Made by a program: the position numbers and the translations under genes
In this document: positions 9,761 through 42,339 of the stretch, piece by piece
How the letters are laid out: every line of letters starts with the position of its first letter
Position numbering within the stretch: the first letter of the stretch is position 1
Assembly: GCA_031264145.1 (NCBI GenBank)
Contig: JAISEK010000071.1
Span: forward strand, 1-47,970
Reading direction: 5' to 3'
Origin: Deltaproteobacteria bacterium
GTDB taxonomy: Bacteria; Desulfobacterota; Desulfarculia; Adiutricales; Adiutricaceae
Length of the DNA: 47,970 nucleotides
The notes under the pieces: generated by a model
The model's input: only the letters and a program-made list of their open reading frames with translations
Databases searched by the model: none
What the model was told of the DNA's origin: nothing

Positions 9761-10822
9761 GTGGTGGACAAGCAAGACGGCGTGATTCAGCCGATAAACG
9801 GCGGCATAGATACAAACATTTATCTAGGCATCCGCGATACCCTTGCGCAAGCGAGGACAAAAGCGTTTACCGCTGTCAATTCCGCTATGATTGAAGCCTA
9901 TTGGGACATAGGGCGGCAAATTGAAGAAGCGGTCGGTGAACGCGCCGAATACGGAAAAGGTTTATTGAGTTTTTTGGCGAAAGGTTTGACGAGCGAGTTT
10001 GGAAAAGGTTTTGACGAAAGCAGCCTGCGTCGTATGCGCCAGTTTTTCAAGACGTTTCAGAATCGTGCCACGCTGTGGCACGAATTGAGTTGGTCGCACT
10101 ATCGGTTGCTTATGAAAATAGATGACGCGTCACGTCGTGAATTTTATGCCCGCGAGTGCGTGGAGGCCGCATTGAGCGTCCGCCAGTTGGAACGTCAAAT
10201 CAACTCGTTCTTTTACGAACGACTGCTTGCTACACAGAAAAGCGGGCGAGATAGTGTTCGGAGCGAGATACAGACCCTCGAACCGAAAACTGACCCGAAC
10301 TATATTCTCAAAGACCCGTACATCTTGGAATTTCTTGACTTGAAAGAGAACCGCGACTATCACGAAAGCGAGTTTGAGCAGGCTCTCATCGACAAGATAC
10401 AAGACTTTTTGCTTGAGCTTGGCAAGGGTTTTTCGTTCGTGGCGCGTCAAAAGCGAATCACCGCCGACGGCGACCATTACTATGTTGATCTCGTTTTCTA
10501 TAATTATATTTTGAAATGTTTTGTTGTTATAGATCTTAAAACAGGCAAATTGACCTATCAGGACATTGGGCAGATTGATTTTTATGTCCGCTTGTTTGAC
10601 GATAAGGTGAAACAATCGGACGATAATCCGACAATCGGAATCATTCTGTGCGCCGACAAAGGTGAGAGTATGGTAAAATACTCCGTGCTTGCCGATAACG
10701 AAAATCTGTTTGCGTCCAAATATATGCTCTACCTGCCGACGGAGGACGAATTAAAGCGGGAATTGGAACGCGAACGTGATATTATTGAACGTCGGCAGTT
10801 GATTGACGGGGAGGCTAAATAA
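9761..10822 (+). CDS. DUF1016 / YhcG-type PDDEXK nuclease domain protein
   Basis: A 353-residue protein of the YhcG family (DUF1016): an N-terminal helical domain with YWDIGRQIEEAV, AEYGKGLLSFLAKGL and SLRRMRQFFKTF, then a C-terminal PD-(D/E)XK-like fold with YYVDLVFYNYILKCFVVIDL and KTGKLTYQDIGQIDFYVRLF. It starts at a GTG (9761, or the adjacent GTG 9764) behind a strong AGGAGG. Family members sit in restriction-modification and defence islands and are predicted nucleases. The gene ends TAA overlapping the ATG of the next, broken, methyltransferase frame, so it was once translationally coupled to it. Moderate GC and codon use unlike the core genes suggest horizontal transfer. The protein appears intact. 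Confidence 0.92.
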   Translation: MVDKQDGVIQPINGGIDTNIYLGIRDTLAQARTKAFTAVNSAMIEAYWDIGRQIEEAVGERAEYGKGLLSFLAKGLTSEFGKGFDESSLRRMRQFFKTFQNRATLWHELSWSHYRLLMKIDDASRREFYARECVEAALSVRQLERQINSFFYERLLATQKSGRDSVRSEIQTLEPKTDPNYILKDPYILEFLDLKENRDYHESEFEQALIDKIQDFLLELGKGFSFVARQKRITADGDHYYVDLVFYNYILKCFVVIDLKTGKLTYQDIGQIDFYVRLFDDKVKQSDDNPTIGIILCADKGESMVKYSVLADNENLFASKYMLYLPTEDELKRELERERDIIERRQLIDGEAK

Positions 10823-11791: not shown

Positions 11792-12412
11792 TCAGGATCC
11801 TTCCGGGTCCTCGCCGTCCGGTTCCGGCTCCTCCATGGCCAGGGGCGGCCCGATGAGTTTTGGCAGCTCTATGCCCAGGATCTCCAGCAGGCCCATTTGG
11901 CCCAAGGGCCGGAGGCGCCGGCGGTGCCGCCAGATGTGCTGGGCAATGAGGACCCCCAGGCCGGCGCCGCAGAGGGTGTGGGTCCTGACCGAGCCCCAAA
12001 AGGCCGAGGCCACACAGCTCAGGAAAGCCGTCGCCAGGTTGATGGTCTCGGAGGTGGCCCTGGCCGAGCCGCGGGGGCGGGGCCGCCTGGCCATGGCCGC
12101 TTCCCTGGCTTCGCCTGAAAGCAGCTCCGGGGGCACCTCGACCGCCCGGGCGAAGAGGCCCCTTGGTTTCAGGAGCCAGGGGTTCCTGAGCGTGGCCGCC
12201 CCCTCGGGGTCGAGGGGCTCCAGGAACGAGGCGATCTCCTCGACCGAGATGGCCTCGGGGTCGTATTCCAGAAGGACGCCGCCAGTCAATGGGTTGATGG
12301 TCAGGGTCTTGACGCCCTTGAGGGTGCCCGCTGCCGGGACGGGCGGGACGTCCTGGCCCTTGAGGTGGGTGAGTCTGGCCCTGATGCGCCCTCTGACGAA
12401 ACTTACGATCAT
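11792..12412 (-). CDS. HMA-like domain (HMA_2 type) membrane-associated protein
   Basis: A protein of about 206 residues. Its N-terminal 75 residues (VSFVRGRIRARLTHLK ... LTINPLTGGVLLEYDP ... SVEEIASFL) have the beta-alpha-beta pattern of a ferredoxin-like heavy-metal-associated domain, but there is no CxxC metal motif, as in HMA_2 proteins. Near the C-terminus NLATAFLSCVASAFWGSVRT and GAGLGVLIAQHIWRH could form one or two membrane helices. The start at the ATG 12412 is supported by GGGAG upstream; an in-frame ATG at 12466 is less likely. It is the last gene of a three-gene operon after the P-type ATPase, whose own N-terminus carries a similar domain, so it may regulate or assist metal transport. 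Confidence 0.75.
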   Translation of the reverse strand: MIVSFVRGRIRARLTHLKGQDVPPVPAAGTLKGVKTLTINPLTGGVLLEYDPEAISVEEIASFLEPLDPEGAATLRNPWLLKPRGLFARAVEVPPELLSGEAREAAMARRPRPRGSARATSETINLATAFLSCVASAFWGSVRTHTLCGAGLGVLIAQHIWRHRRRLRPLGQMGLLEILGIELPKLIGPPLAMEEPEPDGEDPEGS

Positions 12413-12493
12413 GCCTTGCTCCCAAATGAGGGGCCCCGCCTCCGGGGACGGGGCCCTTGGAATCATCCGGTCTTTCGCCCTGGCCCTGGGCGG

Positions 12494-14695
12494 CTAGGGC
12501 TTCCTGGCCTTGCGGTGGTGGGCCCTTGGTCTGGGCCCCGTGTCCGCGGCCGGGCCATCCGGCACGGCCTCGGGCGGGAGGGGCGGCAGGAGGGACAGCC
12601 TCCGATCGGCCGAGAGGATTGGCCTGGTGGCCCTCAGGGCGACCAGGAACGTGGTCAGGTTGTGGAGAAGGGCCGTCACCCCCGGCCCAATCCAGCCGAA
12701 GAGGCCCAGGGACAAAAAGAGGCTGTTCAGGCCGACTATGACCTGGTAGTTGGTGTGGATGCGCTGGAGGGTCTGGACGGAGAGCTCTCTGGCCAGGTTC
12801 AGGCCCTCGAGGCGGCCCCCGAGCAACTGGACGTTGGCCACGTCCTTGGCCAGTTCGGAGCCGTCGGAGAGGGCCACGCCCACGTCGGCCAGGGAGAGGG
12901 CGGCCGAGTCGTTGAGCCCGTCCCCGACCATCAGGACGCCCTCGCCCGAGCGGCGCAGGCCCTTGAGGACCTTGGCCTTCTGGTCGGGCAGGAGCTCGGC
13001 CAGGAACTCGGTGAACCCGGCCTCGTTGGCCATGGCCTGGGCGGCGTTCCTGAGATCCCCGGTCAGCATGACGATGCGGTCGACCCCTTGCTCCTTGAGC
13101 GTGGCGATGGTCCTCTTCACCCCTGGCCTCAGTCGGTCCTTTATGGCAATGAGGGCGGCCAGGCGGTCGTCCACGGCCATGTAGATGATGCTGGAGCCGT
13201 CGGAGGAGAGTCTCGCGGCCTCGGCCTCCTCGGCCGCCGAGATGGCGACCTTCTCGTCGTCGATCACGAAGTGGCGGCTGCCCAGGAGGACCCTGTGGTC
13301 CCGCCAGGTGGACGAGATGCCGTGGGCCACCACGTAGTTCACGGAGGTGTGCTCCTCCTCGTGCCCCAGACCGTCGGCCTTGGCCTGGCGGACCACGGCC
13401 CGCCCGACGGGATGGGGGAAGTGCTCCTCCAGGCAGGCGGCCAGCCTGAGGGCCTCGTCCCGGTTGAAGGGCTGGAAGGTGACGATCTCGCCCACCTCGG
13501 GCTTGGCCTCCGTCAGGGTGCCTGTCTTGTCGAAGACCACGGTCGAGGCCCTGGCCAGCTCCTCGAAATAGCGGCCGCCCTTGACCAGTATGCCGTTGTC
13601 GTTGCCCTCGCGCATGGCCGAGAGGACGACCAGGGGCGACGACAGCCTGATGGCGCAGGAGTAGTCGACCAGGAGGACGTTGCCGGCCTTCATGGTGTTG
13701 CGGGTGAAGAGGTAGATGAGTCCGGCCAGGAGGAAGTTGTAGGGCACGATGGCGTCGGCCTTGCGCTCGGCCCGGCCCTGGAGACCGGTCTTGGAGGCCT
13801 CGGACTCCTTTATGTACTCGATGATGGAGCGGATCCGCGTCTCGCCGCCTACCCGGTCGGCCTTGATGACTATCTGCCCCTCCTCCACGGCCGTGCCGGC
13901 GAAGACGGCCCCGCCCGCGGTCTTCCTGACCGCCAGGGGCTCGCCGGTCATGGTGGCCTGGTTGATCATGGCCTCGCCGTCGATGATGCGGCCGTCCACT
14001 GGGACCAGCCCGCCGGCGCGGACGATGACCTTGGAGCCGACGGCCAGCTCAGATTCCTTGGCCCTGATTTCCTGGCCGTCGTCGGTCAGGACCCAGACCA
14101 TCTCCTCGTGGCCGGCCAGGCTCCTGAAGAGCCCCGAGATGCTGCGGCGCCTGGTCCAGGCCTCCAGGTATCGGGAGAGGGAGAAGAAGAAGAGGAGGGT
14201 CCCGGCCGATCCGAGGTCGCCCCGGCTGAAGAGGACCGCCAGGGCCGAGGCGTCCAGGACCTCCACCGTCAGCTGGTTGCGCCACAGGAGATACCTGAGC
14301 CCATCGCAGACGTAGGGGACGGCCGTCAAGATGGAGATGAAGTGCCTTATGGGGCTTGGCAGGAAGATTCTTTTGAGCAGGAACGACCAGATTGGGTTGA
14401 AGGGCAGGGGAGTCTCCTCCCCGACGGCCAGCATGCCCAGCTCGCTTCCTGACAGGGCCCGCCGCTGGCCGGGCTCGAAGTCTGCCAGGGCGCTCATCAG
14501 CCTCAGCCTGATTAGGACCGACGGCTCGTAGACTATGAGAAGGCTCGAGGTTAGGGGATTGTGGGCCAGATACCTTATGCCGCCGCACTTGTTGATGGCC
14601 GAAGACAGGCGATCGAAGGTCCTGGAGGTGAAGCCGGGCGGGGCCAATCTCACTCGTAACCGGCCCCGCAGATCGGAGAGTATCTGTCCTTCCAT
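12494..14695 (-). CDS. P1B-type heavy-metal translocating ATPase (CtpC/Mn-Zn-like)
   Basis: A 733-residue P-type ATPase exporting a transition metal across the inner membrane. Visible motifs: an HMA-like N-terminus without CxxC (residues 1-75), the actuator motif MTGEP, the phosphorylation motif FDKTGTLTE (Asp389), the HP locus FPHPVGRA, MLTGD in the nucleotide domain, and VGDGLNDSAALSLADVGVA at the hinge. The membrane metal motif preceding the P-domain is DYSCAIRLSSP instead of CPC. A single-Cys SCA-type motif of this kind is what I associate with CtpC-like Mn/Zn pumps, so copper is less likely. Length is normal. The gene is preceded by an 81-residue membrane protein (18-bp gap) and followed by an HMA-like protein, and all three seem to share one transcript. 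Confidence 0.93.
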   Translation of the reverse strand: MEGQILSDLRGRLRVRLAPPGFTSRTFDRLSSAINKCGGIRYLAHNPLTSSLLIVYEPSVLIRLRLMSALADFEPGQRRALSGSELGMLAVGEETPLPFNPIWSFLLKRIFLPSPIRHFISILTAVPYVCDGLRYLLWRNQLTVEVLDASALAVLFSRGDLGSAGTLLFFFSLSRYLEAWTRRRSISGLFRSLAGHEEMVWVLTDDGQEIRAKESELAVGSKVIVRAGGLVPVDGRIIDGEAMINQATMTGEPLAVRKTAGGAVFAGTAVEEGQIVIKADRVGGETRIRSIIEYIKESEASKTGLQGRAERKADAIVPYNFLLAGLIYLFTRNTMKAGNVLLVDYSCAIRLSSPLVVLSAMREGNDNGILVKGGRYFEELARASTVVFDKTGTLTEAKPEVGEIVTFQPFNRDEALRLAACLEEHFPHPVGRAVVRQAKADGLGHEEEHTSVNYVVAHGISSTWRDHRVLLGSRHFVIDDEKVAISAAEEAEAARLSSDGSSIIYMAVDDRLAALIAIKDRLRPGVKRTIATLKEQGVDRIVMLTGDLRNAAQAMANEAGFTEFLAELLPDQKAKVLKGLRRSGEGVLMVGDGLNDSAALSLADVGVALSDGSELAKDVANVQLLGGRLEGLNLARELSVQTLQRIHTNYQVIVGLNSLFLSLGLFGWIGPGVTALLHNLTTFLVALRATRPILSADRRLSLLPPLPPEAVPDGPAADTGPRPRAHHRKARKP

Positions 14696-14713
14696 GTCCG
14701 GCTGTCCTTCCCG

Positions 14714-14959
14714 TCAGGACTGGGCTTTGGCGTTGGCCCGGTCCTGTGCCTTTTGGTCGGCCTCGGCCACCAGGTCCTCAAGGTTTTCCTTGGCCGCGCT
14801 GCCCAGGGCCTGGAGCTTCCTCTTGGCGGTCAGGCCATGGCTGAGGACCGTGGTCGCCCCGTCTTTTATGTAGGATGGGCGGCTGGCGATGACCGTGGCC
14901 CCGACGGCCCCGACCAGGACTCCAATTCCGAATGATAGCCACTTCCACTGATTGAACAT
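14714..14959 (-). CDS. small membrane protein, DUF6110-like, of the metal ATPase operon
   Basis: An 81-residue protein with one N-terminal membrane helix (FGIGVLVGAVGATVIASRPS) and a cytoplasmic Ala/Lys/Glu-rich helix (AAKENLEDLVAEADQKAQDR). It resembles DUF6110 proteins, which I recall as small partners of metal P-type ATPases in anaerobes. The ATG follows GAGGAGAG by six bases. It is the first gene of the minus-strand operon and sits 18 bp before the ATPase gene. The single helix plus amphipathic tail would suit a pump regulator or chaperone contact, which is inference. Confidence 0.8.
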   Translation of the reverse strand: MFNQWKWLSFGIGVLVGAVGATVIASRPSYIKDGATTVLSHGLTAKRKLQALGSAAKENLEDLVAEADQKAQDRANAKAQS

Positions 14960-21821: not shown

Positions 21822-23161
21822 GCCTGGGGGCCATTCTTTGACCTCTTTCACCACGCCTGGCTAAAAATTTTGGCTCGTGGGATGGCTATTGTCTGCCAAT
21901 AGTCAGTAATATCCATCTATTTGCCATAATAGGCTGGGCCAGGCTGAGAAGACGCGCGCCAAGGGCATGCCCAGCCGGGCCATGGCCGATAGAGGGCCCA
22001 TGTATTTCCCCGATGTTTCCGGTCCAGGCGAGATAGCCGGCGCCTGGGCCGGACAGTGCCTGCCCATGGCCGCGGCGTCAATCAGTTTGGCCTTTGGTGG
22101 CCCCCCAGCCATTGGCCAGGGCAATAGACTTGCGCATATTTAAGATCTTTATAGTGTCTTTATTGCCTAGCTGATTTCTCTTTCAAGCCAATTACTGCTT
22201 AAATATCATTTGCGCCCTCAACCGCTGGATGAAGGCCGGTGGCGACAAGCCCGGCGGCAAGGTTTTATTCCTCAAGTGGCTGGCGGCCAGACGGCAAGGA
22301 TTGCCGCGAGGGGCCAGGGTATATGCCCCTGCGCGAAACCAGCCAGGGCCTGCGGCCAGAAAACGGCCTGCGGGCCTGGGAACGCCCTCGGACTGGCCGC
22401 GCTCCACGGCTGCGGGAGAAAGAAATCGACGTTTTCGCCCCGCCCCGATCAGTTCCCGGCCGATAACCATGTATCCGGGAGTCTGGCCTTGGGGGCCGCC
22501 CGGGGGGTATTGGGACAGCTGGCTAGAATTGGAAACGGTCGCTCACCAGGTCAAGGCAACGCCGACGCTGGCCGTCACGTCAATTCAAGAATCTCCTTGG
22601 CTGTTTCGTAAAGACACGGTTGGTTTCCGGCAAGCCCAATTACGGCGACCGCGTCTGACGGCTATCCCACCGCTGGTACTCCTTGCGCCGCATCACAGCC
22701 ATCCGCCATCCATATTTACCCACCCACCCACAAGAAGGGACCCCATCTCTTCGGTCCCGGATGCCCGTTCAGTCGGAATAGGGATTCCGCGCCATCGTAC
22801 CGCCTGGCGTAGGAAAACGTTGACATGCCTAGTTGTATATAACTATAAGTCTCTATTCTTTATATATACAATTAATATATTGTCAAGGTCTGATATTTAA
22901 AATTAATGTAACTATAACAAATATATTTAAATATTATTAAAATTTATAGCTCGAATTACTTTATGATAATTGCTATTAATTTATATTTTGTATTTTTTAT
23001 TAATATTTTATTTAATAAAATAGAAAAAGTAAATAAATACTTATGTTAAATCTATTCTATTGTATTGAAGAATACTATTTTATAATGAACATCAACATGT
23101 ATTGAATATATATTCAAGGAAAATATAATTTAAAAATATATTAATTAATTAAAGGTGTAAT
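21822..23161. other. long gene-free stretch, first part of the insert between dapF and dapA
   Basis: About 1.3 kb with no supported gene. 21830-22830 is GC-rich with several open but unconvincing frames. On the minus strand 21903-22124 gives fragments such as GYLAWTGNIGEIHGPSIGHG in one frame and ARLGMPLARVF in another, possibly an old decayed gene. 22840-23160 is strongly AT-rich and leads into the AAA ATPase, so it probably holds that gene's promoter and marks the edge of the acquired segment. Confidence 0.45.
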
Positions 23162-24349
23162 ATGCTAATTGAATCAATTGAAATAAAAAATTTTAAATCT
23201 CTACAGAACGTTAAACTATCAAATTTGCCCGGTATGGCCGTGTTTGTTGGGCGCAACGGAGTAGGCAAAACAGTCCTGTTTGATGTCTTTGGTTTCCTTA
23301 ACGACGCATACATCAGTGATGTAAAAATCGCTCTGCAAGTCCGCGGCGGTTTTAGAGAGGTAATATCTCGCAATCAGAGCGGAGAAATTTTATTTAGGCT
23401 AAAGTTTCGACCGCAAAAAGACGAACCGATCAGTGCCTATGAGCTGTCAATTGGTCTAAATGAGAATTCAGTGCCTGTGGTGAAATCAGAAATCCTAATA
23501 CTTCGCCTCGCAAGCAGCGGTCAACCTTGGCGGGTATTGGAGTTTCACGAGGGAAGGGGATTTGCAGCCGAAGGAGAACTTACCGATTATGCGTCAGCCA
23601 AAGAAGCCCAACGAAAACAGCGTTCCCTCAGCTCTCCTCACATCCTCGCAGTCAAGGCTTTGGGAAATATGGCTGATTTCATCGCCGTTTCAAAGTTCTG
23701 TCGTTTGATTGAGGACTGGTTCGTGTCGGACTTTATTATTGAGGACGCTCGGGAAACTCGCAAAGTCGATGGTGGGGAACATCTCTCTCGTACAGGAAAT
23801 AACCTTGCCTCGGTCGCGCGGCACATGTTTGAAAACTACCCTGAACGTTTCTCCAGCGTTGTAAGACTTCTGACTGAAATGGTTCCAGGTGTTGGGGACG
23901 TTATACCCATAATTACTGACGATGGCCGTATTCTGTTGCGGTTTCGGGACAGCAATTTTATTGACCCGTTTGTGTCGAGTTGTGTATCAGACGGGACAAT
24001 AAAGATGTTCACCTATCTTCTATTGCTAAACGACCCAGAGCGTCACGCCTTGTTATGTGTTGAGGAGCCTGAAAGTAATCTTTTTCCTAAGCTTCTCGGT
24101 GGACTTGTTGAGGAGTTTAGACGGTATTCCATCAGTGATGATAATTATGGTCAGGTATTCATATCTACGCACTCTCCAGATTTGCTTGACGCCGTACGTT
24201 TAGATGAGCTTTACTGCTTGGTCAGAGGTAGCGACGGCTATACCGCAATTCTACGGGCGGCTGACGACAGCCAAATTAACGAGTTTGTCAAAGGTGGTGA
24301 CCTGCTCGGTTATTTGTGGAGTCACGATATGCTGATCAATATGGAGTAA
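23162..24349 (+). CDS. OLD/AAA_21-type AAA family ATPase
   Basis: A 395-residue SMC-like ATPase. The N-terminus MLIESIEIKNFKSLQNVKLS leads to Walker A GRNGVGKTVLFD. Later VEEPESNLFP is the Walker B with catalytic Glu, preceded by the signature-like VSDGTIKMFTYLLLL. FISTHSPDLLDAV is the D-loop/His switch. This single-domain form, without a TOPRIM nuclease, is common in defence islands, often beside a DUF4276 TOPRIM-like partner. Here the next frame has only about 28 residues, so a partner may have been lost. The gene and its AT-rich upstream region differ sharply in GC from dapF and dapA, so it was acquired. Confidence 0.9.
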   Translation: MLIESIEIKNFKSLQNVKLSNLPGMAVFVGRNGVGKTVLFDVFGFLNDAYISDVKIALQVRGGFREVISRNQSGEILFRLKFRPQKDEPISAYELSIGLNENSVPVVKSEILILRLASSGQPWRVLEFHEGRGFAAEGELTDYASAKEAQRKQRSLSSPHILAVKALGNMADFIAVSKFCRLIEDWFVSDFIIEDARETRKVDGGEHLSRTGNNLASVARHMFENYPERFSSVVRLLTEMVPGVGDVIPIITDDGRILLRFRDSNFIDPFVSSCVSDGTIKMFTYLLLLNDPERHALLCVEEPESNLFPKLLGGLVEEFRRYSISDDNYGQVFISTHSPDLLDAVRLDELYCLVRGSDGYTAILRAADDSQINEFVKGGDLLGYLWSHDMLINME

Positions 24350-24350
24350 T

Positions 24351-24437
24351 TTGAGCGAGGAACGGTTTGTTATGCTCACCGAAGTAATGTCTATGAAGAT
24401 ATTTCTTGAAACACTGAACAAGAGAGTACTACAATAA
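24351..24437 (+). pseudogene. possible remnant of a partner gene of the AAA ATPase
   Basis: Directly after the ATPase stop, a TTG at 24351 begins SEERFVMLTEVMSMKIFLET and ends seven residues later at a stop. The composition is protein-like and the immediate adjacency suggests translational coupling. In related loci this position holds a TOPRIM-like DUF4276 gene. I cannot confirm homology over so short a piece, and it could be chance. Confidence 0.3.
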
Positions 24438-24702
24438 GTATAATTACAAATGAGAAAGAAAGCTACATTTTTTGCTATGGAACTGCCTCATGATGGTAAC
24501 GGCTCATAGACGCCTTCGGAAGATCCACCAGGTGGTTGCCACTGGAAACGGCCAAGTTGGTCGCAGGGAAGCTACTGTGGTCTTTTCATGTCTCGCCCGA
24601 TGAGTTACTGGCCCATCCCCTGGCCGGCGTCCAAGCCACCGCTTGTGGACTCGGCCAGTCCAGCCGCCGGAGTGGCGTTGGCATGTGTCGTTGCCAAATT
24701 AT
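24438..24702. other. short gap between the AAA island and the repeat-protein gene
   Basis: No gene seen. Composition returns to GC-rich near 24530, the probable right edge of the AAA island. Confidence 0.35.
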
Positions 24703-24744
24703 GCGCCCCATTTCCTCGGTCTAGGGACAGAGGTAATGGGGCGC
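24703..24744 (-). terminator. 15-bp hairpin downstream of the His/Tyr repeat gene
   Basis: GCGCCCCATTTCCTC (24703-24717) pairs with GAGGTAATGGGGCGC (24730-24744), with one mismatch, around a 12-base loop. It lies about 50 bp past the stop of the minus-strand repeat gene. On that strand the stem is followed by ATAATTTGG, a poor U tract, so termination is probable rather than certain. Confidence 0.45.
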
Positions 24745-24794
24745 GATGTATAGAAGGCTCGGCCAGGTTTGGCGAAAATGACTGGCTTTGGGGC

Positions 24795-25382
24795 CTATTC
24801 GGTGGTCACCGGTCCTGGCTCAGGGTCAAGTTCAACTTTCCGTCCGTGGTCCCAGTAATAGACTTTTCTGTGGCCACTGTGGTGTCCGCCGTAGGGCCTC
24901 ACGTCCAAGTACCCGCCTGCTTCTGGGGCCTGACGGGGTGACTTCCTCCAGTGATCCCAGTAGTAGACGTTCCTGTGGCCGCTGTGGTGGCCGCCGTAGG
25001 TCTTCATGCGCAGGTTCCCCCCGTCGCCGTCGCTGCGGGCGCCTTTGCGGGTGGCCTGGCGGGAGGGCATGTCCCCGTGGTCCCAATAATAGACGGTCCT
25101 GTGGCCGCTGTGGTGGCCTCCGTAGGTCTTCGCGCGCAGGTTCCCCTCGTTGCCGCTGGTGCCATTGCGGGTGGCCTGGCGGGAGGGCATGTCTCCGTGG
25201 TCCCAGTAATAGACGGTCCTGTGGCCACTGTGGTAGCCGCCTTGAGTATTCCCGCTGCGTTTCTCGTGGTCGCCGTCATCGTCCTGCCCGCCAAGGCCCA
25301 GGTCAGGGCCGGCCAGGGCCAGGCAGGGGACGAGGAGGGCGGCTAGGGCAAGAAGGAGAAACGGTCTCAGGATTCCTTTCAT
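24795..25382 (-). CDS. secreted protein with four His/Tyr/Trp-rich tandem repeats
   Basis: A 195-residue protein. The ATG at 25382 has GGAAGGAG seven bases upstream. A signal peptide (residues 1-25, hydrophobic core FLLLALAALLVPCLALAG) is followed by an Asp-rich segment and then four copies of GG[HY]HSGHR[TNK]VYYWDH at about residues 48, 88, 130 and 165 (spacings 40, 42 and 35). Copies 1 and 2 also share GDMPSRQATR. I recognise no family. Clustered His, Tyr and Trp with Asp suggest surface, envelope or metal-binding use, but this is only a guess. It stands alone between hairpin 24703-24744 and a 1.5-kb gene-free stretch. An in-frame upstream ATG at 25433 would destroy the signal peptide. Confidence 0.85.
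   Translation of the reverse strand: MKGILRPFLLLALAALLVPCLALAGPDLGLGGQDDDGDHEKRSGNTQGGYHSGHRTVYYWDHGDMPSRQATRNGTSGNEGNLRAKTYGGHHSGHRTVYYWDHGDMPSRQATRKGARSDGDGGNLRMKTYGGHHSGHRNVYYWDHWRKSPRQAPEAGGYLDVRPYGGHHSGHRKVYYWDHGRKVELDPEPGPVTTE
24846..25254 (-). repeat. four imperfect DNA repeats inside the His/Tyr repeat gene
   Basis: Blocks of about 58 bp beginning at 24846, 24951, 25077 and 25197 are nearly identical (each contains GTGGCC[GA]CTGTGGT). Their periods of 105, 126 and 120 bp are all multiples of three, so expansion and contraction kept the frame. High DNA identity between copies suggests recent duplication or gene conversion. Confidence 0.8.
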
Positions 25383-26922
25383 TGTTCTGCTCCTTCCAGC
25401 GGCCGGGCCATGATCCTCGCGCCGGCGAGGCACATGGCCGTGAGGCCACGATTTGCCAATACGGCTGTTAGTCGCTGAAGTCGGCCCCGTAACCTGCCGG
25501 TTCCCGCCGGCCTCGACGCCAGCGCCGTTGCCGTCATTGACGCGGGGGCTGGGGCCAGGGCAATGGGGAATCGGCCCGGTAGCCTGGAGCCGGACCCCGC
25601 CGTGGACTGCCTCGCCTCCAGCCGCTTCCTTACACGAAGCTGCTGCGGGGAGGCCTTGGCTTGGCCCGACACGCCAGGGGCGACGCCCGAATTTGCCCTA
25701 GGCCCTGTGTCTGGGGCCTTGTGCCCTATCGACTCGTCGTGGCCCTGGTTTCTGCGAGACCCGTCGACTCAAAGGACGTCGTGGCGCCAGGCCGTGTCGG
25801 CCAGGGCGCGATGGCGTCGGTATGGCCTTTTCTTCTCTCCCGCCAGCCCGCCAAAGACTTCTGTTTGAGTCTATCATAGGCTGTTGCAGGCTTTTTGGCA
25901 AGTGTTTAATTTGGCGACGAGGTCCCGAGAGTTGCGACCATGAATAGGATGTCCCTTTAGGTTGTCCCTGAGGTTCGGAGGCCCACCGGTTATCCGTTTC
26001 GGTGCGCCATCCTGGCATGTTTTTTATAACTGGCGGCCAAAGGATCGGGGAGGCGACGGCATGCCCCGAGCCTAAGGAGTACCGGCACGTCATGGTGCCC
26101 TCGGTGCGTTGCCCGTGGTGCGGCGTTTCCTGTCTGGCCTCAGCAATTGCCGGTCGCGGAATCCGATCCGCAAAGCGACAATCCAAGTACGGCGTCACTG
26201 ATTTGGCGACTATTACGGCAAATGTGTTTTTCGGGGCTGGACAATCGCATTCGAGATGGTCCTTCGGATCTGACTGCCCAGTGGGGGCTGCGGTTCCGGG
26301 GCCGATGGGGTAGGACGATGGCTCCTCCAGGCCGCCCTCGCGAAACCCAATATAGGATGTCCGATGGTTGGGGGATGTGGGCTGGACAGCTGACTGGCAA
26401 GTCTAGGTGCCAAAAAGTGCCAGAAAGAGGTTTTCCGGGATTTTTTTCCCGCTTTTGCCTGGACGGCCTCCGGCGGCTGTTCTTTTTTGTTCAACTTTCT
26501 GCTATAATCCTCGCAAAGTAGACGGCGTGGGGCCTGTTTTTAGCTTCCAGGCACCGATGGCCGTCCCGTTAAGAGCCTTTTTGTCGATTTCCTCTCCCCT
26601 CCTTGAGGTGCCGAAGTGTCTCTGGTCCACTCTCTCGCGGGAAGGTCCAATGGCTGGGTGGATGTAAGGCCCCGGGTCGTCCATGCGCGGATGCCCCTGG
26701 GCCTGGCGAAGGCCTGATCCAGCCGGACTGACCAGGGACTGGTCCCTTTGCGGCCACCCCTCTTATAAGCACAAGCCACGATTCCCAAAACAAGCCAAGA
26801 GCTCCCGCCGCGGCGGGCGCGGGAACCTCGCATAGTCCCAGGAGGTCCTCCCAGGGGCCAAGTCGCCGACTGGCCCCGGGGGCATCCCGGGCCATAGCCT
26901 GAGAAAGGACTTTGGTGTTGCC
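25383..26922. other. 1.5-kb gene-free stretch before dapA
   Basis: No gene is supported on either strand. The sequence is GC-rich and many frames are open by chance. The frame at 26002-26313 includes CPWCG but has no ribosome site or family resemblance. The last 100 bases must include the dapA leader. This may be decayed coding sequence, but I could not reconstruct any product. Confidence 0.4.
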
Positions 26923-33402: not shown

Positions 33403-33606
33403 TCACCCCTTTTCAGCGGCGGCCAAAATCTCAACCAGCTCCTCCGGTGGAATGTGGACCACCTGACCGTCCCGATAGCCAACCATGGGCACGCCCGCCT
33501 GGATATGACGCTTCATGGCCTCCAGGCCGCCTCGGCGGATGGCTTCGGTCACTGGCGTTCCCGCTCGGATCAACGCCTCGATGTCTACATTCTTTTTATC
33601 GCTCAT
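33403..33606 (-). CDS. small partner protein of the zeta-toxin-like kinase
   Basis: A 67-residue protein. RGGLEAMKRHIQAGVPMVGY followed by RDGQVVHIPPEEL resembles the short proteins encoded next to COG4185 zeta-like kinases (a helix with RHxxAGxP and a small beta tail). The start at 33606 is preferred because AAGGA from the end of the kinase gene is eight bases upstream; an ATG at 33612 is too close to it. The kinase frame ends at 33596, inside this gene, so the two overlap. It might be an antitoxin or a regulator. The order kinase then small protein is the reverse of many toxin-antitoxin pairs. Confidence 0.7.
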   Translation of the reverse strand: MSDKKNVDIEALIRAGTPVTEAIRRGGLEAMKRHIQAGVPMVGYRDGQVVHIPPEELVEILAAAEKG

Positions 33607-34193
33607 TGTCATATTCCTTCAAAAAGACCTCATACATCAGCGAATCGTGGAGGCGCTCGCTGGTTTGCCCGACCCCTTGGGCAATCAAAAGAGGGTGCGC
33701 CGGCGAGGAGTTGTCATAAAACATCCACGATGAAACGACCGACCTATAAAGCCGGAAAAAATTAGCCAAGCCGGCCGCAAAGCGCCTCTTTATAGTGTAT
33801 TCCGGGATATTGTGTCCACCCAGCGTGACCCGAAGGGAGACGCGGTCGATGGCCATTTCCACGTTCGGCAAGGCCAGAAACATCAGGTGGCTTTGATAGC
33901 CCGCAGCCATCAAGGTCGCCAGCCATGGCGCAAAAGAGCGTGCGGCCAGCGTGGTCTCGAAGGCAAAATTTATCAGCTTTTTAGCCAGTTCATGTAATCG
34001 CTTCAACATGATCAAGCCGGCGTCCATCGCCACGTTCTCCGGAGCGAAGGCGGAAAGCCCTTGGGCGATGGCGTCAGCATTGACGAATTCCTCCACCTCA
34101 AAGGCATCCCGCAACAACATGGGGGCGGTGGTGGATTTGCCGGCTCCGTTGGGGCCGGCCAGTACTTATCACGTGCGGTCTGGCTGCGGTCAT
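33596..34193 (-). pseudogene. zeta-toxin-like P-loop kinase with a frameshift before the Walker A motif
   Basis: The intact part (ATG 34120 to stop 33596, 174 residues) reads EEFVNADAIAQGLSAF, LINFAFETTLAARSFA and GHNIPEYTIKRRFAAGLANF, matching zeta-toxin/COG4185 kinases. The P-loop lies upstream of that ATG: in the same frame VLAGPNGAGKSTTAPM is encoded at 34120-34165, directly after an in-frame TAA. The natural start, ATG 34193 with AAAGGA upstream, begins MTAARPHVIS in a different frame. One indel near 34166-34170 would join them. So either the kinase is inactivated, or the assembly has an error here, or a CTG at the P-loop is used. The active-site Asp and substrate motifs are otherwise present. 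Confidence 0.75.
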
Positions 34194-34885: not shown

Positions 34886-36102
34886 CTAGAAAAGCTGTAA
34901 AAACAAATGGAGGGCGAAAACGAGCATGACATGCCGGTGCCAGCCCTTCCAGGATCTTCCCTCAAAATGACCAAGCCCAAGATTGGACTTGCATTCCTCG
35001 AAGCACTGCTCGATCGACCAGCGCCCTGGCGACAGTTCCCTGAATTTCTCCAGTGGGGTGTCCTCGTGGGCATTGCTGATCGCGTACCTGGTGCCGCCGT
35101 CCTTCATTTTTTTCGCGTACAGCCAGACCTGCTTTCCCGGCAACCTGTCCATTGCCTCCCAGACCCATGGCAGCTTGTCCTGCCCGACGATCAGCCCCTT
35201 GGAGCCGATGCCGTTGCCTGGCCTCTTGCCAGGGGACGTCGCTTTTCTCGACAATCGATGACGCCTTGGCTGGCTTCTGGTCGGCCCGCGGTCTCCGGGG
35301 CTTCCTGCCGCGGCCGACCCATTCGGGCGTGGAGACGGCCGGCAGCGCGGCGAAAAGCCGGGCGTCGTGGTGGACGTCCACGAAGCAATGCAGCCATTCC
35401 GAGATGGAATCCACGAATTCCGCACAATTCCCGAACCACGAGTCCGCGCCGACCCACCTTCCCTCGAATTTCCCCCCGGCGGCGATGGATCGCGGCAACT
35501 CGATGGCGATCTCAATTTTCGTCCTGTGCCCGACGTGTCCCGGGATGCCGCACCTCTTGCGCCGGACGGCGTATTCCTCCGAGAACCACTTCTTCGGCAG
35601 GAACAGCTCATAATTGATCGGGCCATGCCATCCCGTCCCGGCGTAGCCGACCACCACGGAGGCTACGCACCTGGCGACCTTTCCTTGGACGCCAGCAGTA
35701 CTGGCTGGCGACCCACACCGTCTCGCTTCCCTGCTTCGGCAAGTTGCACCCGTCGACCGTGAACACGACGTCCTCGTCGGAGACGAGTCCCGACATCAGG
35801 CCCTGGTGGACGCCAATAATTTTTCTAAGGGACCACGTTTATCTTGTCATGAATAATTGAAGTGGTTGCACCAGGGCCGGGCCCCCAAAGTGCAGCGCGA
35901 TGGGCTCGATGGATTTTCTATCAAGATAACTCATCAGCCCTTTAAAGTATATGCAAAAATGTTCAAATTGTTTGATATGGTTGAAGCAATCTTTATAATT
36001 CAGCAAATAATCATGTAGCGTCGATATTATCGATGGCAACATTGTTTCCGAAATTCCGACCAATTTCAGAAGATCGGGGTTAAAATCCGGGATAAACGGC
36101 AT
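34886..36102 (-). pseudogene. IS701-family transposase, broken by at least three frameshifts
   Basis: Reading from 36102 down: residues MPFIPDFNPDLL to QLFMTR (stop at 35839); WSLRKIIGVHQGLMSGLVSD with VVFTVDGCNLPKQGS and VASQYCW in a second frame; VVVGYAGTGWHGPINYEL, FLPKKWFSEEY and WVGADSWFGN in a third; then LPGKQVWLYAKKMKDGGTRY and WSIEQCFEECKSNLGLGHFE to the stop at 34886 in a fourth. Catalytic residues can be proposed as Asp in TVDG, Asp in GADSWFG and Glu in FEECK. The order and content match IS701 transposases of about 400 residues. Breaks lie near 35840, 35700 and 35220. I could not define the terminal inverted repeats. Confidence 0.82.
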
Positions 36103-38647: not shown

Positions 38648-39139
38648 ATGGGGCGATTCGAGGAATGGCTGGCCTTGGCCGAGAAAGGCGATCCGAATGC
38701 CCAGTACGAGCTGGGCTGGGTCTTTGCGGAAGGAGACGGGGTCGACGCTGATCTTGGCACGGCCCTGCACTGGTGGCGCCTGGCTGCGAATTCAGGCCAC
38801 GCCGATTCCCAAAATGACCTGGGCCGGGCCTATGCCCAGGGTGCCGGGGTCGAGCAGGATTATGGGATGGCCGTGGCCTGGTGGACAAAGGCCGCCGAGA
38901 ATGGCAACCGGAAGGCGCAATTCTCCTTGGCCCATGCCTACTCCAGGGGCGACGGGGTGGAAAAGGATTCCGTCCTGGCCATTCACTGGTGGCTCAAGAG
39001 TGCCGAGGGTGGTTACCCAAAGGCCCAATATGCCTTGGGCCAAGCCTATGCCAAAGGCGAGGGGGTAGAGAGGAGCCTGGCCCAGGCTACCTACTGGCTC
39101 CAGATGGCCGCTGACCATGGAAACAACGGCGATGATTGA
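38648..39139 (+). CDS. Sel1-like repeat protein (first of four)
   Basis: A 163-residue protein made almost entirely of Sel1-like repeats, a TPR-related alpha solenoid. Four units of about 36 residues are visible, such as AQYELGWVFAEGDGVDADLG, TALHWWRLAANSGHADSQND and ALGQAYAKGEGVERSLAQ, keeping the A-x-x-x-L-G and W[WL]xxAAxxG positions. There is no signal peptide, so it should stay in the cytoplasm, unlike many exported Sel1 proteins. A strong AGGAGGGG lies 6 bases before the ATG. It begins a same-strand series of Sel1 genes. Its partner is unknown; Sel1 proteins mediate protein-protein contact. Confidence 0.92.
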   Translation: MGRFEEWLALAEKGDPNAQYELGWVFAEGDGVDADLGTALHWWRLAANSGHADSQNDLGRAYAQGAGVEQDYGMAVAWWTKAAENGNRKAQFSLAHAYSRGDGVEKDSVLAIHWWLKSAEGGYPKAQYALGQAYAKGEGVERSLAQATYWLQMAADHGNNGDD

Positions 39140-39190
39140 GGCCAGTTGGTTGTGGCAGATCAGCGTTATCATTTATGTTTGAGGTTATAA

Positions 39191-40129
39191 ATGCAACAGC
39201 TATTGACTTTATTCAGTTTGTTTGATGAGGCCAAGGCAGGTAAGGCCGATGCCCAGCTAGAACTTGGCAAAGAATTTGCAAGGATAAATCGTGAAAAATC
39301 TGCACTATTAACAAAAAATGAATATATTGAACTTTTAATTGGAAAATTACTTGCTTCTAATAATGATAATGCTCCTGCATCTGATTTTATGACTGAAGGT
39401 ACCCAAAATGTTTCAGAATTAGTGCCTAATGGTTATGCTCAAAAGATTCTTTCTTTCTTGGGCATGGATGAGGACATGGACAGCGGCAGCGGTGAAGAAA
39501 AAGACGATGATGATAATGGGGATGACGGTGATGATGATGATGATGAGTTGGAAATTAATGTTCAGACAGGTTCAACGGAGAATGCCGATGCGACACCAGG
39601 GTTGCCTGTAAAATCTGAATCTACCGATCAAACTATGGAAAATTTTAAGTATGTTTATAACCCCCCAGTTTGTTCTGATCTTCATATTGACGCAATTAGG
39701 ATAATTGAAGAACAACTAAGAAGAAATACATCAAATACACCAAAATATGATGAAGATAGTGAATTAGAAACACTTATGAAGTTAAGTGAGATTAAATTTA
39801 GAAATATGACAGCAAAAGTAGCGAAAAAGGCCCTGGGAAGACAATTTCTCTTTCATGTAAAATTAAACTTGTTGCCTGAATATGAGCCATTATTCCCTAT
39901 AAATAGCTGCTATTTGTTATTGAATTCAGTCCATTGGTGGAGAAAGGCTGCCGAACAAGGCTTGCCCGAGGCCCAGTTCCTTTTGGGCTCAGCCTACGCT
40001 GATGGCCAGGGCGTGGCCAAGGACAAGGAAAGGGCGGCTTTTTGGTGGTCCAAGGCCGCCGGCAACGGCCTGCTCATTGCCCAGCTGATGTTTGACGATC
40101 TGATCTCCGAAGAGGAGGGCATGGAATAG
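39191..40129 (+). CDS. Sel1-like repeat protein split by a 200-residue AT-rich acidic insertion
   Basis: A 312-residue protein, 51 bp after the first Sel1 gene. Residues 10-35 (FDEAKAGKADAQLELGKEFA) look like the start of a Sel1 unit, and residues 247-300 (VHWWRKAAEQGLPEAQFLLG, SAYADGQGVAKDKERAAFWW) resume the repeat pattern exactly where the first part left it. Between them, about 40-245, are 200 unrelated residues with AT-rich codons, an Asp/Glu run near residues 96-118 (EEKDDDDNGDDGDDDDDELE) and a helical segment. The frame stays open throughout, so the insertion was tolerated or is a real domain. The acidic run is likely disordered. Confidence 0.85.
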   Translation: MQQLLTLFSLFDEAKAGKADAQLELGKEFARINREKSALLTKNEYIELLIGKLLASNNDNAPASDFMTEGTQNVSELVPNGYAQKILSFLGMDEDMDSGSGEEKDDDDNGDDGDDDDDELEINVQTGSTENADATPGLPVKSESTDQTMENFKYVYNPPVCSDLHIDAIRIIEEQLRRNTSNTPKYDEDSELETLMKLSEIKFRNMTAKVAKKALGRQFLFHVKLNLLPEYEPLFPINSCYLLLNSVHWWRKAAEQGLPEAQFLLGSAYADGQGVAKDKERAAFWWSKAAGNGLLIAQLMFDDLISEEEGME

Positions 40130-40221
40130 AATCAGTTCCATGGCGTGGGCGTGAGTCTATGGCTCTTTGGGTCAGATAGGCCGAGTTTTTCTTTAGTGGT
40201 TTTCTGTCTGGGTGATGTTGC

Positions 40222-40644
40222 ATGGTTCCCTTTGTAGAGTTGCTCGAGAGAGCCGAGAACGGAGAGGCCCGGGCCCAATATGAGCTCGGGCTGGCCTATT
40301 CCAGTGGCCGGCAAGTGGTCCAGGATCTGGAGGAGGCCGTCAACTGGTGGCGGCAGGCCTTCGAGCAGGGCCTGGAGGAGCCCATCTACGAGCTGGCCCA
40401 GGCTTATGGGCAAGGCGGCCCCGGTCTGGAGAGGGATTTGGCCGAGTCTTTCTACTGGTGGCTCCAGGCGGCCAAGTGGGGCCGGCTGGAGGCCGCCACC
40501 CAGGCCTGCTGGCGGGTGGGCCAGGCCTACGCCAACGGGGTCGGGGTGGCCCAGGATTTTGACCAGGCCAGGCGTTGGCTGGCCAAGGCCTCCGAGCAGG
40601 GGCTGGCGGAGGCTGAGGCCTTTTTGTCCCAGCTGGTTCCATAG
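40222..40644 (+). CDS. Sel1-like repeat protein (third of four)
   Basis: A 140-residue protein of three to four Sel1 units: AQYELGLAYSSGRQVVQDLE, AVNWWRQAFEQGLEEPIYEL, AQAYGQGGPGLERDLAESFY and VGQAYANGVGVAQDFDQARR. Its opening (VPFVELLERAENGEARAQYE) resembles that of the first and fourth genes, so the set arose by duplication. No signal peptide. Only GGGTGA precedes the ATG as a possible ribosome site. It lies 92 bp after the previous Sel1 gene. Confidence 0.9.
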   Translation: MVPFVELLERAENGEARAQYELGLAYSSGRQVVQDLEEAVNWWRQAFEQGLEEPIYELAQAYGQGGPGLERDLAESFYWWLQAAKWGRLEAATQACWRVGQAYANGVGVAQDFDQARRWLAKASEQGLAEAEAFLSQLVP

Positions 40645-41280
40645 GAGGCGCGCATGGCGTGAGATTGCCTCTCCTTCCCCGGTACCTGGACCCCATAATC
40701 CTGTCTTTTTGTCTGCCTGCCTGGATGGTTGCCCGCATTTTTTATGGACTAGCCGTTATAATTTATGCATGTTTTGCGTTAAAGGATTGATTGGCGCACG
40801 CATACGGATTTTTTTGCGATTTTTGATCCAAGTTTAGCGCAGTTGGCTAGAGGGGGGCTGGACTGTTGGTGGGGACCAGGCGCGGAGGAGCCGGGGCGTC
40901 GTCTGGCAGTGGCGGAGGATGCGTCAATTAATCTTGATGGAAGATCAAGGGCATTTACTTATAGTATCTTTTCGTAAGTATGGCATATCAGCCGTGTTTT
41001 TGGATAAGCCATGGTTTGGCTGATTGACTGGTTCAAATATTGACGAATTGGCCCAAAAATGTTAACTTATGCGTAAAGCTTGATGGACACTTGACTAACA
41101 GCCGCCCCGCCCAAACGGGCCTCCATGGCGGGGGGCCATCTGGACGTGACCCCCAAGGCGCCCCAGGGCGGCCCTGGGCCGGGACCAGGCCCCCATGGGA
41201 CGGCCGAAAAAAGGCCGGGCTCTTTTCCCATGGGCCCAGACGAACCATAATGGGCCCATGGCCGTCATCCAGTAGAGAAC
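40645..41280. other. 636-bp gap inside the Sel1 cluster, with an inverted repeat before the fourth gene
   Basis: No gene seen. CCATGGGCCCA (41228-41238) and TGGGCCCATGG (41251-41261) form an 11-bp inverted repeat with a 12-base spacer, 19 bp before the fourth Sel1 ATG; each arm is also nearly self-complementary. CGGCC-GAAAAAA-GGCCG lies near 41201. Near 40833 a D-arm-like string occurs without the rest of a tRNA. 40720-40820 and 40920-41100 are AT-rich and may hold promoters. Confidence 0.45.
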
Positions 41281-42339
41281 ATGCCGATACCGCAGTTGGA
41301 AGAGTTGATTAGGAATGCCGAGATGGGCCACCCGGAGTCCATGTTCCAGTTGGGCGAGGCCTATTGCCATGGCCTGGGCGGCATCAGGCGCGACCAGGGC
41401 CAGGCGGTCAGCTGGTGGCGCAGGGCGGCCGAGGTGGGCCTGCCCAAGGCCATGAACAACCTGGCCCTGGCCCTGGCCCATGGGCTTGGGGTGGCCGCCA
41501 ATATCAAGGAGGCCATGTTCTGGTGGGGCCTGGCGGCGGAGGCCGGGCTGTCCGAGGCCATGGTCAACATCGGCTCGTCCTTCTATCGGGGCAACGGGGT
41601 CACGGAGGACAAGCCCAGGGCCTTCTACTGGTGGCTCAAGGCGGCCGGCCAGGGCTACGTGGACGCCATGGTCCTGGTGGGCAACGCCTACGCCAGGGGC
41701 CAGGGGATAGGGGAGGACTGGGAGCAGGCCGTCGTGTGGTGGCTGGGGGCGGCAGAGAAGGGCCAGCCCGAGGCCATGTTCTGTCTGGGCACGGCCTATT
41801 TCAAGGGGCTGGGGGTCGGCGAGGACCGGGCCTTGGGCATCCATTGGTGGCAAAAGTCCGCCGAGAGGGGCTGGGCCATGGCCTGGCTCTTCCTTGGCAA
41901 TGCCTTCTGCCAGCCTGGGGCGGGGGCCGATATCCGGAAGTCCGTGAAATGCTGGAGCCGGGCCGCCCTCAGGGGCGTCCCCGAGGCCCTGGACAACCTC
42001 AGGAACCCCGTTTTTGGCTACGAGCTGGCCGACGAGCTGGAAAATTGGCGCCGCCTGGCCGCCGGCGGAGACACCGAGGCCCAGATGTTCCTTGGCCAGG
42101 CTCTCTTCAACGGCCTGGGGACCCCGGAGGACAAGGCCGGGGCCACCGAGTGGTGGCACAAGGCCGCCGGGCGCGGCAACAGCCAGGCCATGCTCCGCCT
42201 GGGCATCGCCTTCCAGGAAGGGCAGGGGGTCGAGAGGGACCTCAGGCAGGCCTTCGGGTGGCTTGTCCAGGCCATCAGGTTCGGCGCCGGCCCTGAGGCC
42301 CTAGAGAGGCTCAAGGGCATGGGAGGGGGCCAGGCCTAG
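41281..42339 (+). CDS. Sel1-like repeat protein (fourth and longest)
   Basis: A 352-residue protein with about nine consecutive Sel1-like units of 36 residues, for example MFQLGEAYCHGLGGIRRDQG, AVSWWRRAAEVGLPKAMNNL, MFCLGTAYFKGLGVGEDRAL and MLRLGIAFQEGQGVERDLRQ. A degenerate unit is seen near residues 225-250 (RNPVFGYELADELENWRRLA). The start matches those of the other copies (IPQLEELIRNAEMGHPESMF). No signal peptide or other domain. It is followed within 16 bp by a strong terminator and then by the convergent sbcC. Confidence 0.93.
   Translation: MPIPQLEELIRNAEMGHPESMFQLGEAYCHGLGGIRRDQGQAVSWWRRAAEVGLPKAMNNLALALAHGLGVAANIKEAMFWWGLAAEAGLSEAMVNIGSSFYRGNGVTEDKPRAFYWWLKAAGQGYVDAMVLVGNAYARGQGIGEDWEQAVVWWLGAAEKGQPEAMFCLGTAYFKGLGVGEDRALGIHWWQKSAERGWAMAWLFLGNAFCQPGAGADIRKSVKCWSRAALRGVPEALDNLRNPVFGYELADELENWRRLAAGGDTEAQMFLGQALFNGLGTPEDKAGATEWWHKAAGRGNSQAMLRLGIAFQEGQGVERDLRQAFGWLVQAIRFGAGPEALERLKGMGGGQA

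Follow-up and report, generated by a model that had tools for sequence, protein, structure and literature searches.

A gene on the minus strand between dapF and dapA encodes a predicted exported protein carrying four copies of a His/Tyr/Trp-rich motif, GG[HY]HSGHR[TNK]VYYWDH, and this motif is under purifying selection. We refer to the gene as the orphan. It lies in a window of 47,970 nucleotides, the whole stretch of DNA analysed, which is the entire contig 58 of a 4.0-Mb genome that is 96% complete. Gene content suggests an uncultured Desulfobacterota lineage as the source.

The gene and its product

The features of the gene and its immediate surroundings are as follows.

24795..25382, minus strand: open reading frame for the repeat-protein precursor, 195 aa (reading frame, codon-position GC)
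25390..25395, minus strand: Shine–Dalgarno sequence AAGGAG, 7 nt upstream of the ATG (read in the sequence)
25311..25382, minus strand: predicted Sec signal peptide, MKGILRPFLLLALAALLVPCLALA, with cleavage between ALA and G (read from the translation)
25197..25241, minus strand: repeat core 1, GGYHSGHRTVYYWDH (translation and repeat/pattern search)
25077..25121, minus strand: repeat core 2, GGHHSGHRTVYYWDH (translation and repeat/pattern search)
24951..24995, minus strand: repeat core 3, GGHHSGHRNVYYWDH (translation and repeat/pattern search)
24846..24890, minus strand: repeat core 4, GGHHSGHRKVYYWDH (translation and repeat/pattern search)
24703..24744, minus strand: 19-bp inverted repeat, a strong hairpin, GCGCCCCATTTCCTC..GAGGTAATGGGGCGC, 89% complementary with a 4-nt loop

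The frame opens with an ATG at 25382 and its stop codon ends at 24795. Its GC content by codon position is 65/49/79%, a pattern shared by most neighbouring genes, and third-position GC in this frame climbs to 0.85–0.88 across 24900–25350. Because this pattern coincides with a Shine–Dalgarno sequence and a signal peptide, the orphan is very probably a genuine gene, as an earlier, sequence-only reading had held, and base composition marks the minus frame as the coding one. A frame on the opposite strand (24788–25471) was rejected as a gene: Pfam gives no match for it, a signal peptide is not visible, and the coding periodicity fits the minus frame. Upstream of the orphan, the promoter search returned only a weak match, far away. 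The inverted repeat lies 51–92 nt past the stop, between the orphan and a neighbouring ATPase gene, and is a possible transcript-end hairpin; it has no T run, and terminator scoring does not call an intrinsic terminator.

The signal peptide proposed previously is clearly recognizable, with a positive n-region and a Leu/Ala core ahead of the cleavage site. The precursor reads MKGILRPFLLLALAALLVPCLALA, then GPDLGLGGQDDDGDHEKRSGNTQ from the cleavage site; the remainder consists of four units, 40, 42, 35 and 31 aa long, and the final unit reaches the C-terminus. No canonical lipobox ([LVI][ASTVI][GAS]C) is present, the single Cys sitting in LVPC with Pro at −1. The mature protein of 171 aa contains no Cys, and has a pI of about 8.8 and a GRAVY of about −1.5.

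Each unit opens with a core, and the cores start at residues 48, 88, 130 and 165. Their spacings of 120, 126 and 105 nt (40, 42 and 35 aa) agree with the description of four repeats at periods that are multiples of three. The three His per repeat given in that description apply to copy 1, which has Tyr at the variable site; copies 2–4 have four. Apart from this one His/Tyr exchange, the His, Tyr, Trp and Asp residues of the core are invariant across the four copies, the conserved side chains being His/Tyr3, His4, His7, Tyr11, Tyr12, Trp13, Asp14 and His15 (core numbering), together with Gly and Arg. The linkers are hydrophilic and drift in sequence; their lengths differ as well, with the frame kept throughout. 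Met is absent from the motif, and the three Met of the mature protein are all in linkers. Of the five occurrences of a degenerate 20-base pattern for G[HY]HSGHR in the 4.0-Mb genome, four fall in the orphan, a concentration that excludes a repeat arising by chance. A DNA search of the same genome for further copies returned only stretches of 33–46 nt resembling the signal-peptide region.

Selection on the repeat cores

The 45-nt cores differ pairwise at 4–7 positions, mostly silent, and 8 of the 10 variable columns among the four cores are third codon positions. Departures from the consensus amount to 12 base changes that produce only 3 residue changes (P about 5e-5). This P was obtained by random placement of an equal number of changes, with both residue-varying positions included, as few residue changes being seen in about 1 of 20,000 trials. 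Nei–Gojobori estimates between copies, which are rough at 17 codons, give dN of 0.02–0.17 and dS of 0.4–2.2. Since the copies vary mostly at silent sites with few residue changes, we conclude that the repeat motif is under purifying selection. The selection suggested by the sequence-only reading is thus strengthened, whereas two of its other statements need revision. The description of the DNA as nearly identical is too strong for cores of 84–91% pairwise identity, and an especially recent expansion is contradicted by silent sites that have diverged while the amino acids of the motif were retained. Copies 1 and 2, whose linkers share the start GDMPSRQATR, look like a younger duplication, the only such pair.

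Searches for relatives

Pfam, NCBIfam, PHROGs, PADLOC and PDB sequences yielded no credible relative. Searches of phages and plasmids (tblastn), and of viral contigs and one genome-contig scan (pattern plus tblastn), gave nothing or spurious frames. The only Pfam model under E 0.001 was PF17449 (YrzK-like; 21.6 bits, E 2.7e-4), aligned to YHSGHRTVYYWDHGDM. We attribute this match to composition noise: it falls below the Pfam gathering threshold of 27.8 bits that defines membership, and a control with the reversed mature sequence did about as well, matching DUF6316 at E 4.5e-4. As the reversed sequence scores alike, Pfam matches near E 3e-4 are chance for so biased a repeat.

Other candidates were likewise discarded. 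Phrog_22675 is a weak PHROGs match; a match in L003 (Eubacteriales) is apparently a chance frame, with QDDDGDHEKR and a Leu/Arg-rich stretch and no repeat; one in G006 (E 0.009) lies elsewhere and lacks the motif; and one in G009 falls in an HD-GYP-like response regulator. A Salmonella phage tail-fibre match is antisense to the annotated gene, and matches to Reovirus sigma-1 and a PDB glycoside hydrolase are noise. PADLOC profiles, including HEC-01 and other defence systems, matched the orphan in no family. The earlier statement that the protein belongs to no known family is therefore upheld by profile and sequence searches alike, and no homolog came to light across databases and phylum genomes.

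Distribution and genomic setting

The repeat profile matched neither six further genomes of the genus nor the remaining genomes searched from the family, order and class (63 genomes in all), and a 395-genome draw across the phylum added no other carrier; about 440 phylum genomes were covered overall. Some congeners are 68–92% complete, so that the absence is a strong result for the group as a whole and less so for any single genome. The best reading of this distribution is that the orphan is species-restricted, confined to one genome among those searched.

Comparison with three congeners (G002, G003 and G005) places the orphan in an insertion.

21825..26911, no strand assigned: insertion of ∼5 kb, from dapF to dapA, containing the orphan and an AAA ATPase gene

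The dapF–dapA gap is 5.1 kb in the window vs about 210–350 bp in the congeners, and the inserted DNA has no match in their dap regions. Neither an integrase nor terminal repeats were found within it. The AAA_21 ATPase gene (23162–24349) is AT-richer than its surroundings (GC3 0.45), its best PADLOC model is HEC-01B (E 9e-136), and matches to it were found in 9 of the 62 genomes searched, its own included; it is likely a mobile defence gene, a patchily distributed candidate. A stretch of ∼20% GC lies ahead of it, at 22800–23150. The orphan has a host-like GC pattern and the ATPase gene does not, so the two need not have arrived together.

This setting bears on the possibility that the orphan is a young gene which an unstable insertion produced incidentally and which has no important role. 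Presence in one genome only, the isolated position in a gene-poor 5-kb insertion and the weak and distant promoter match would fit such an origin. Silent divergence combined with a retained motif, however, requires time under selection, and the good Shine–Dalgarno sequence, signal peptide and native GC pattern also speak against it; we consider this origin unlikely.

Elsewhere in the window, a P-type ATPase (E1-E2_ATPase), an HMA_2-like neighbour and a small membrane-type protein are encoded at 11792–14959, ∼10 kb from the orphan. The congener G002 lacks the orphan, yet the DNA of the P-type ATPase is conserved there, so the two are not linked. No metal-handling gene was recognized in the insertion, none is tied to the orphan by conserved neighbourhood, and no sil/pco operon was recognized within the window. 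Several consecutive Sel1-type repeat proteins with differing repeat numbers, one of them confirmed by Pfam, are encoded at 38648–42339. The window also contains an AAA-ATPase_like and PDDEXK_9 protein (643–2586), a YhcG-type PDDEXK nuclease (DUF1016; 9761–10822) adjoining a small HTH-like protein, and a weak Zeta_toxin match (33596–34120, E 1e-5) close to transposase-like remnants recognized by reading only (34886–35657).

Possible functions of the protein

The mature protein is probably intrinsically disordered. AlphaFold2 run without homologs gave an unreliable model, with mean pLDDT 37 and a weak strand pair per unit, and one unit modelled with the four units as mutual alignment gave a pLDDT of 58 and no secondary structure, again unreliable; low confidence of this kind is compatible with disorder and is not proof of it. 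Either a site for metal or heme or an aromatic/His sticker would require side chains such as those conserved here, and the number of copies, together with their free linkers, suggests that one exported chain offers several equal binding sites. Metal binding, Tyr cross-linking and envelope anchoring, the roles raised in the sequence-only reading, are all conceivable.

By analogy with SilE, we place first, as a tentative reading, a Sec-exported, probably disordered multi-module protein that binds or buffers metal or heme; disorder, location and metal binding are here what we infer. Four equivalent ligand modules, each grouping three or four His, two Tyr, one Trp and one Asp, would be carried on variable hydrophilic linkers. 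Located in the periplasm or on the cell surface, each module would supply one site, either for heme iron or for a metal of soft or borderline type (Cu, Zn, Ni), and might fold once the ligand is bound, after the fashion of the SilE/PcoE sponges, to which the protein is unrelated. SilE is exported and disordered when apo, carries repeated His/Met motifs, and compacts with six Ag+ bound (PMC5008109). Both SilE/PcoE and the orphan protein are small and exported, with His-containing repeats parted by linkers. In contrast to the SilE motifs MxxHxxxxxHxxM and HxxMxxxHxxM, which are predicted to be helical, the orphan motif is composed of His, Tyr, Trp and Gly, and its lack of Met, with the lack of Cys in the mature protein, is unlike SilE. 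No HxxM/MxxH motifs of the SilE/PcoE type occur in the orphan protein, and no similarity to SilE/PcoE was detected in Pfam, NCBIfam or PDB sequences. Against this reading stand the strictly kept Tyr-Tyr-Trp, which suggests aromatic contacts rather than metal alone, and the lack of a recognized metal-handling gene in the insertion.

A second reading, to which we give a lower probability, is that of a self-associating surface or matrix protein whose Gly-His-Tyr-Trp stickers could, outside the cell, promote adhesion, Tyr cross-linking or coacervation that depends on pH. Four near-identical aromatic/His/Gly modules on soluble linkers form a sticker-and-spacer layout, for which squid beak proteins provide a precedent: these phase-separate via repeated GHGxY motifs, through His deprotonation and Tyr clustering, and several copies are needed (PMC6884462). 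Repeated Gly-His-Tyr modules and export are common to both. The beak proteins, however, are of animal origin and carry many short tandem repeats, whereas the orphan protein has just four modules, containing Trp and Asp, set 35–42 aa apart on long charged linkers; its pI is another point against self-association. There is no homology with them, nor any sequence relation to matrix proteins; surface-anchoring repeats gave no match to the orphan protein either, and a dedicated partner for secretion or anchoring was not recognized nearby. The analogies with SilE and with the squid beak are ones of working principle, not of descent.

An aromatic-Gly repeat in an exported protein could also bind carbohydrate or peptidoglycan, working like choline-binding (CW_binding) repeats. 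VYYWDHGDM would then be the counterpart of their aromatic hairpin, and the strand pair seen per unit in the low-confidence model would be in keeping with this, but that model is unreliable. No CW_binding match was obtained with the protein at E up to 10 or with one unit at E up to 1, the repeats differ in period (35–42 aa vs about 20) and in length, and a catalytic domain is missing; carbohydrate binding is thus quite improbable.

Significance

Returning to metal or heme binding, it is doubtful, though conceivable, that the orphan founds a new class of exported multivalent metal-/heme-binding (or phase-separating) repeat proteins, built on a previously undescribed His/Tyr/Tyr/Trp/Asp module in one uncultured lineage. 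Until relatives emerge, a gene known from one genome only is of limited general importance. The orphan is nevertheless a clear case in which internal repeats reveal protein-level selection without any homolog, and one unit (GGHHSGHRTVYYWDHGD) is short enough for synthesis and direct testing. If the proposal is correct, an unseen compact His/Tyr/Trp module would join the few known repeat units that give exported disordered proteins metal binding or condensation.
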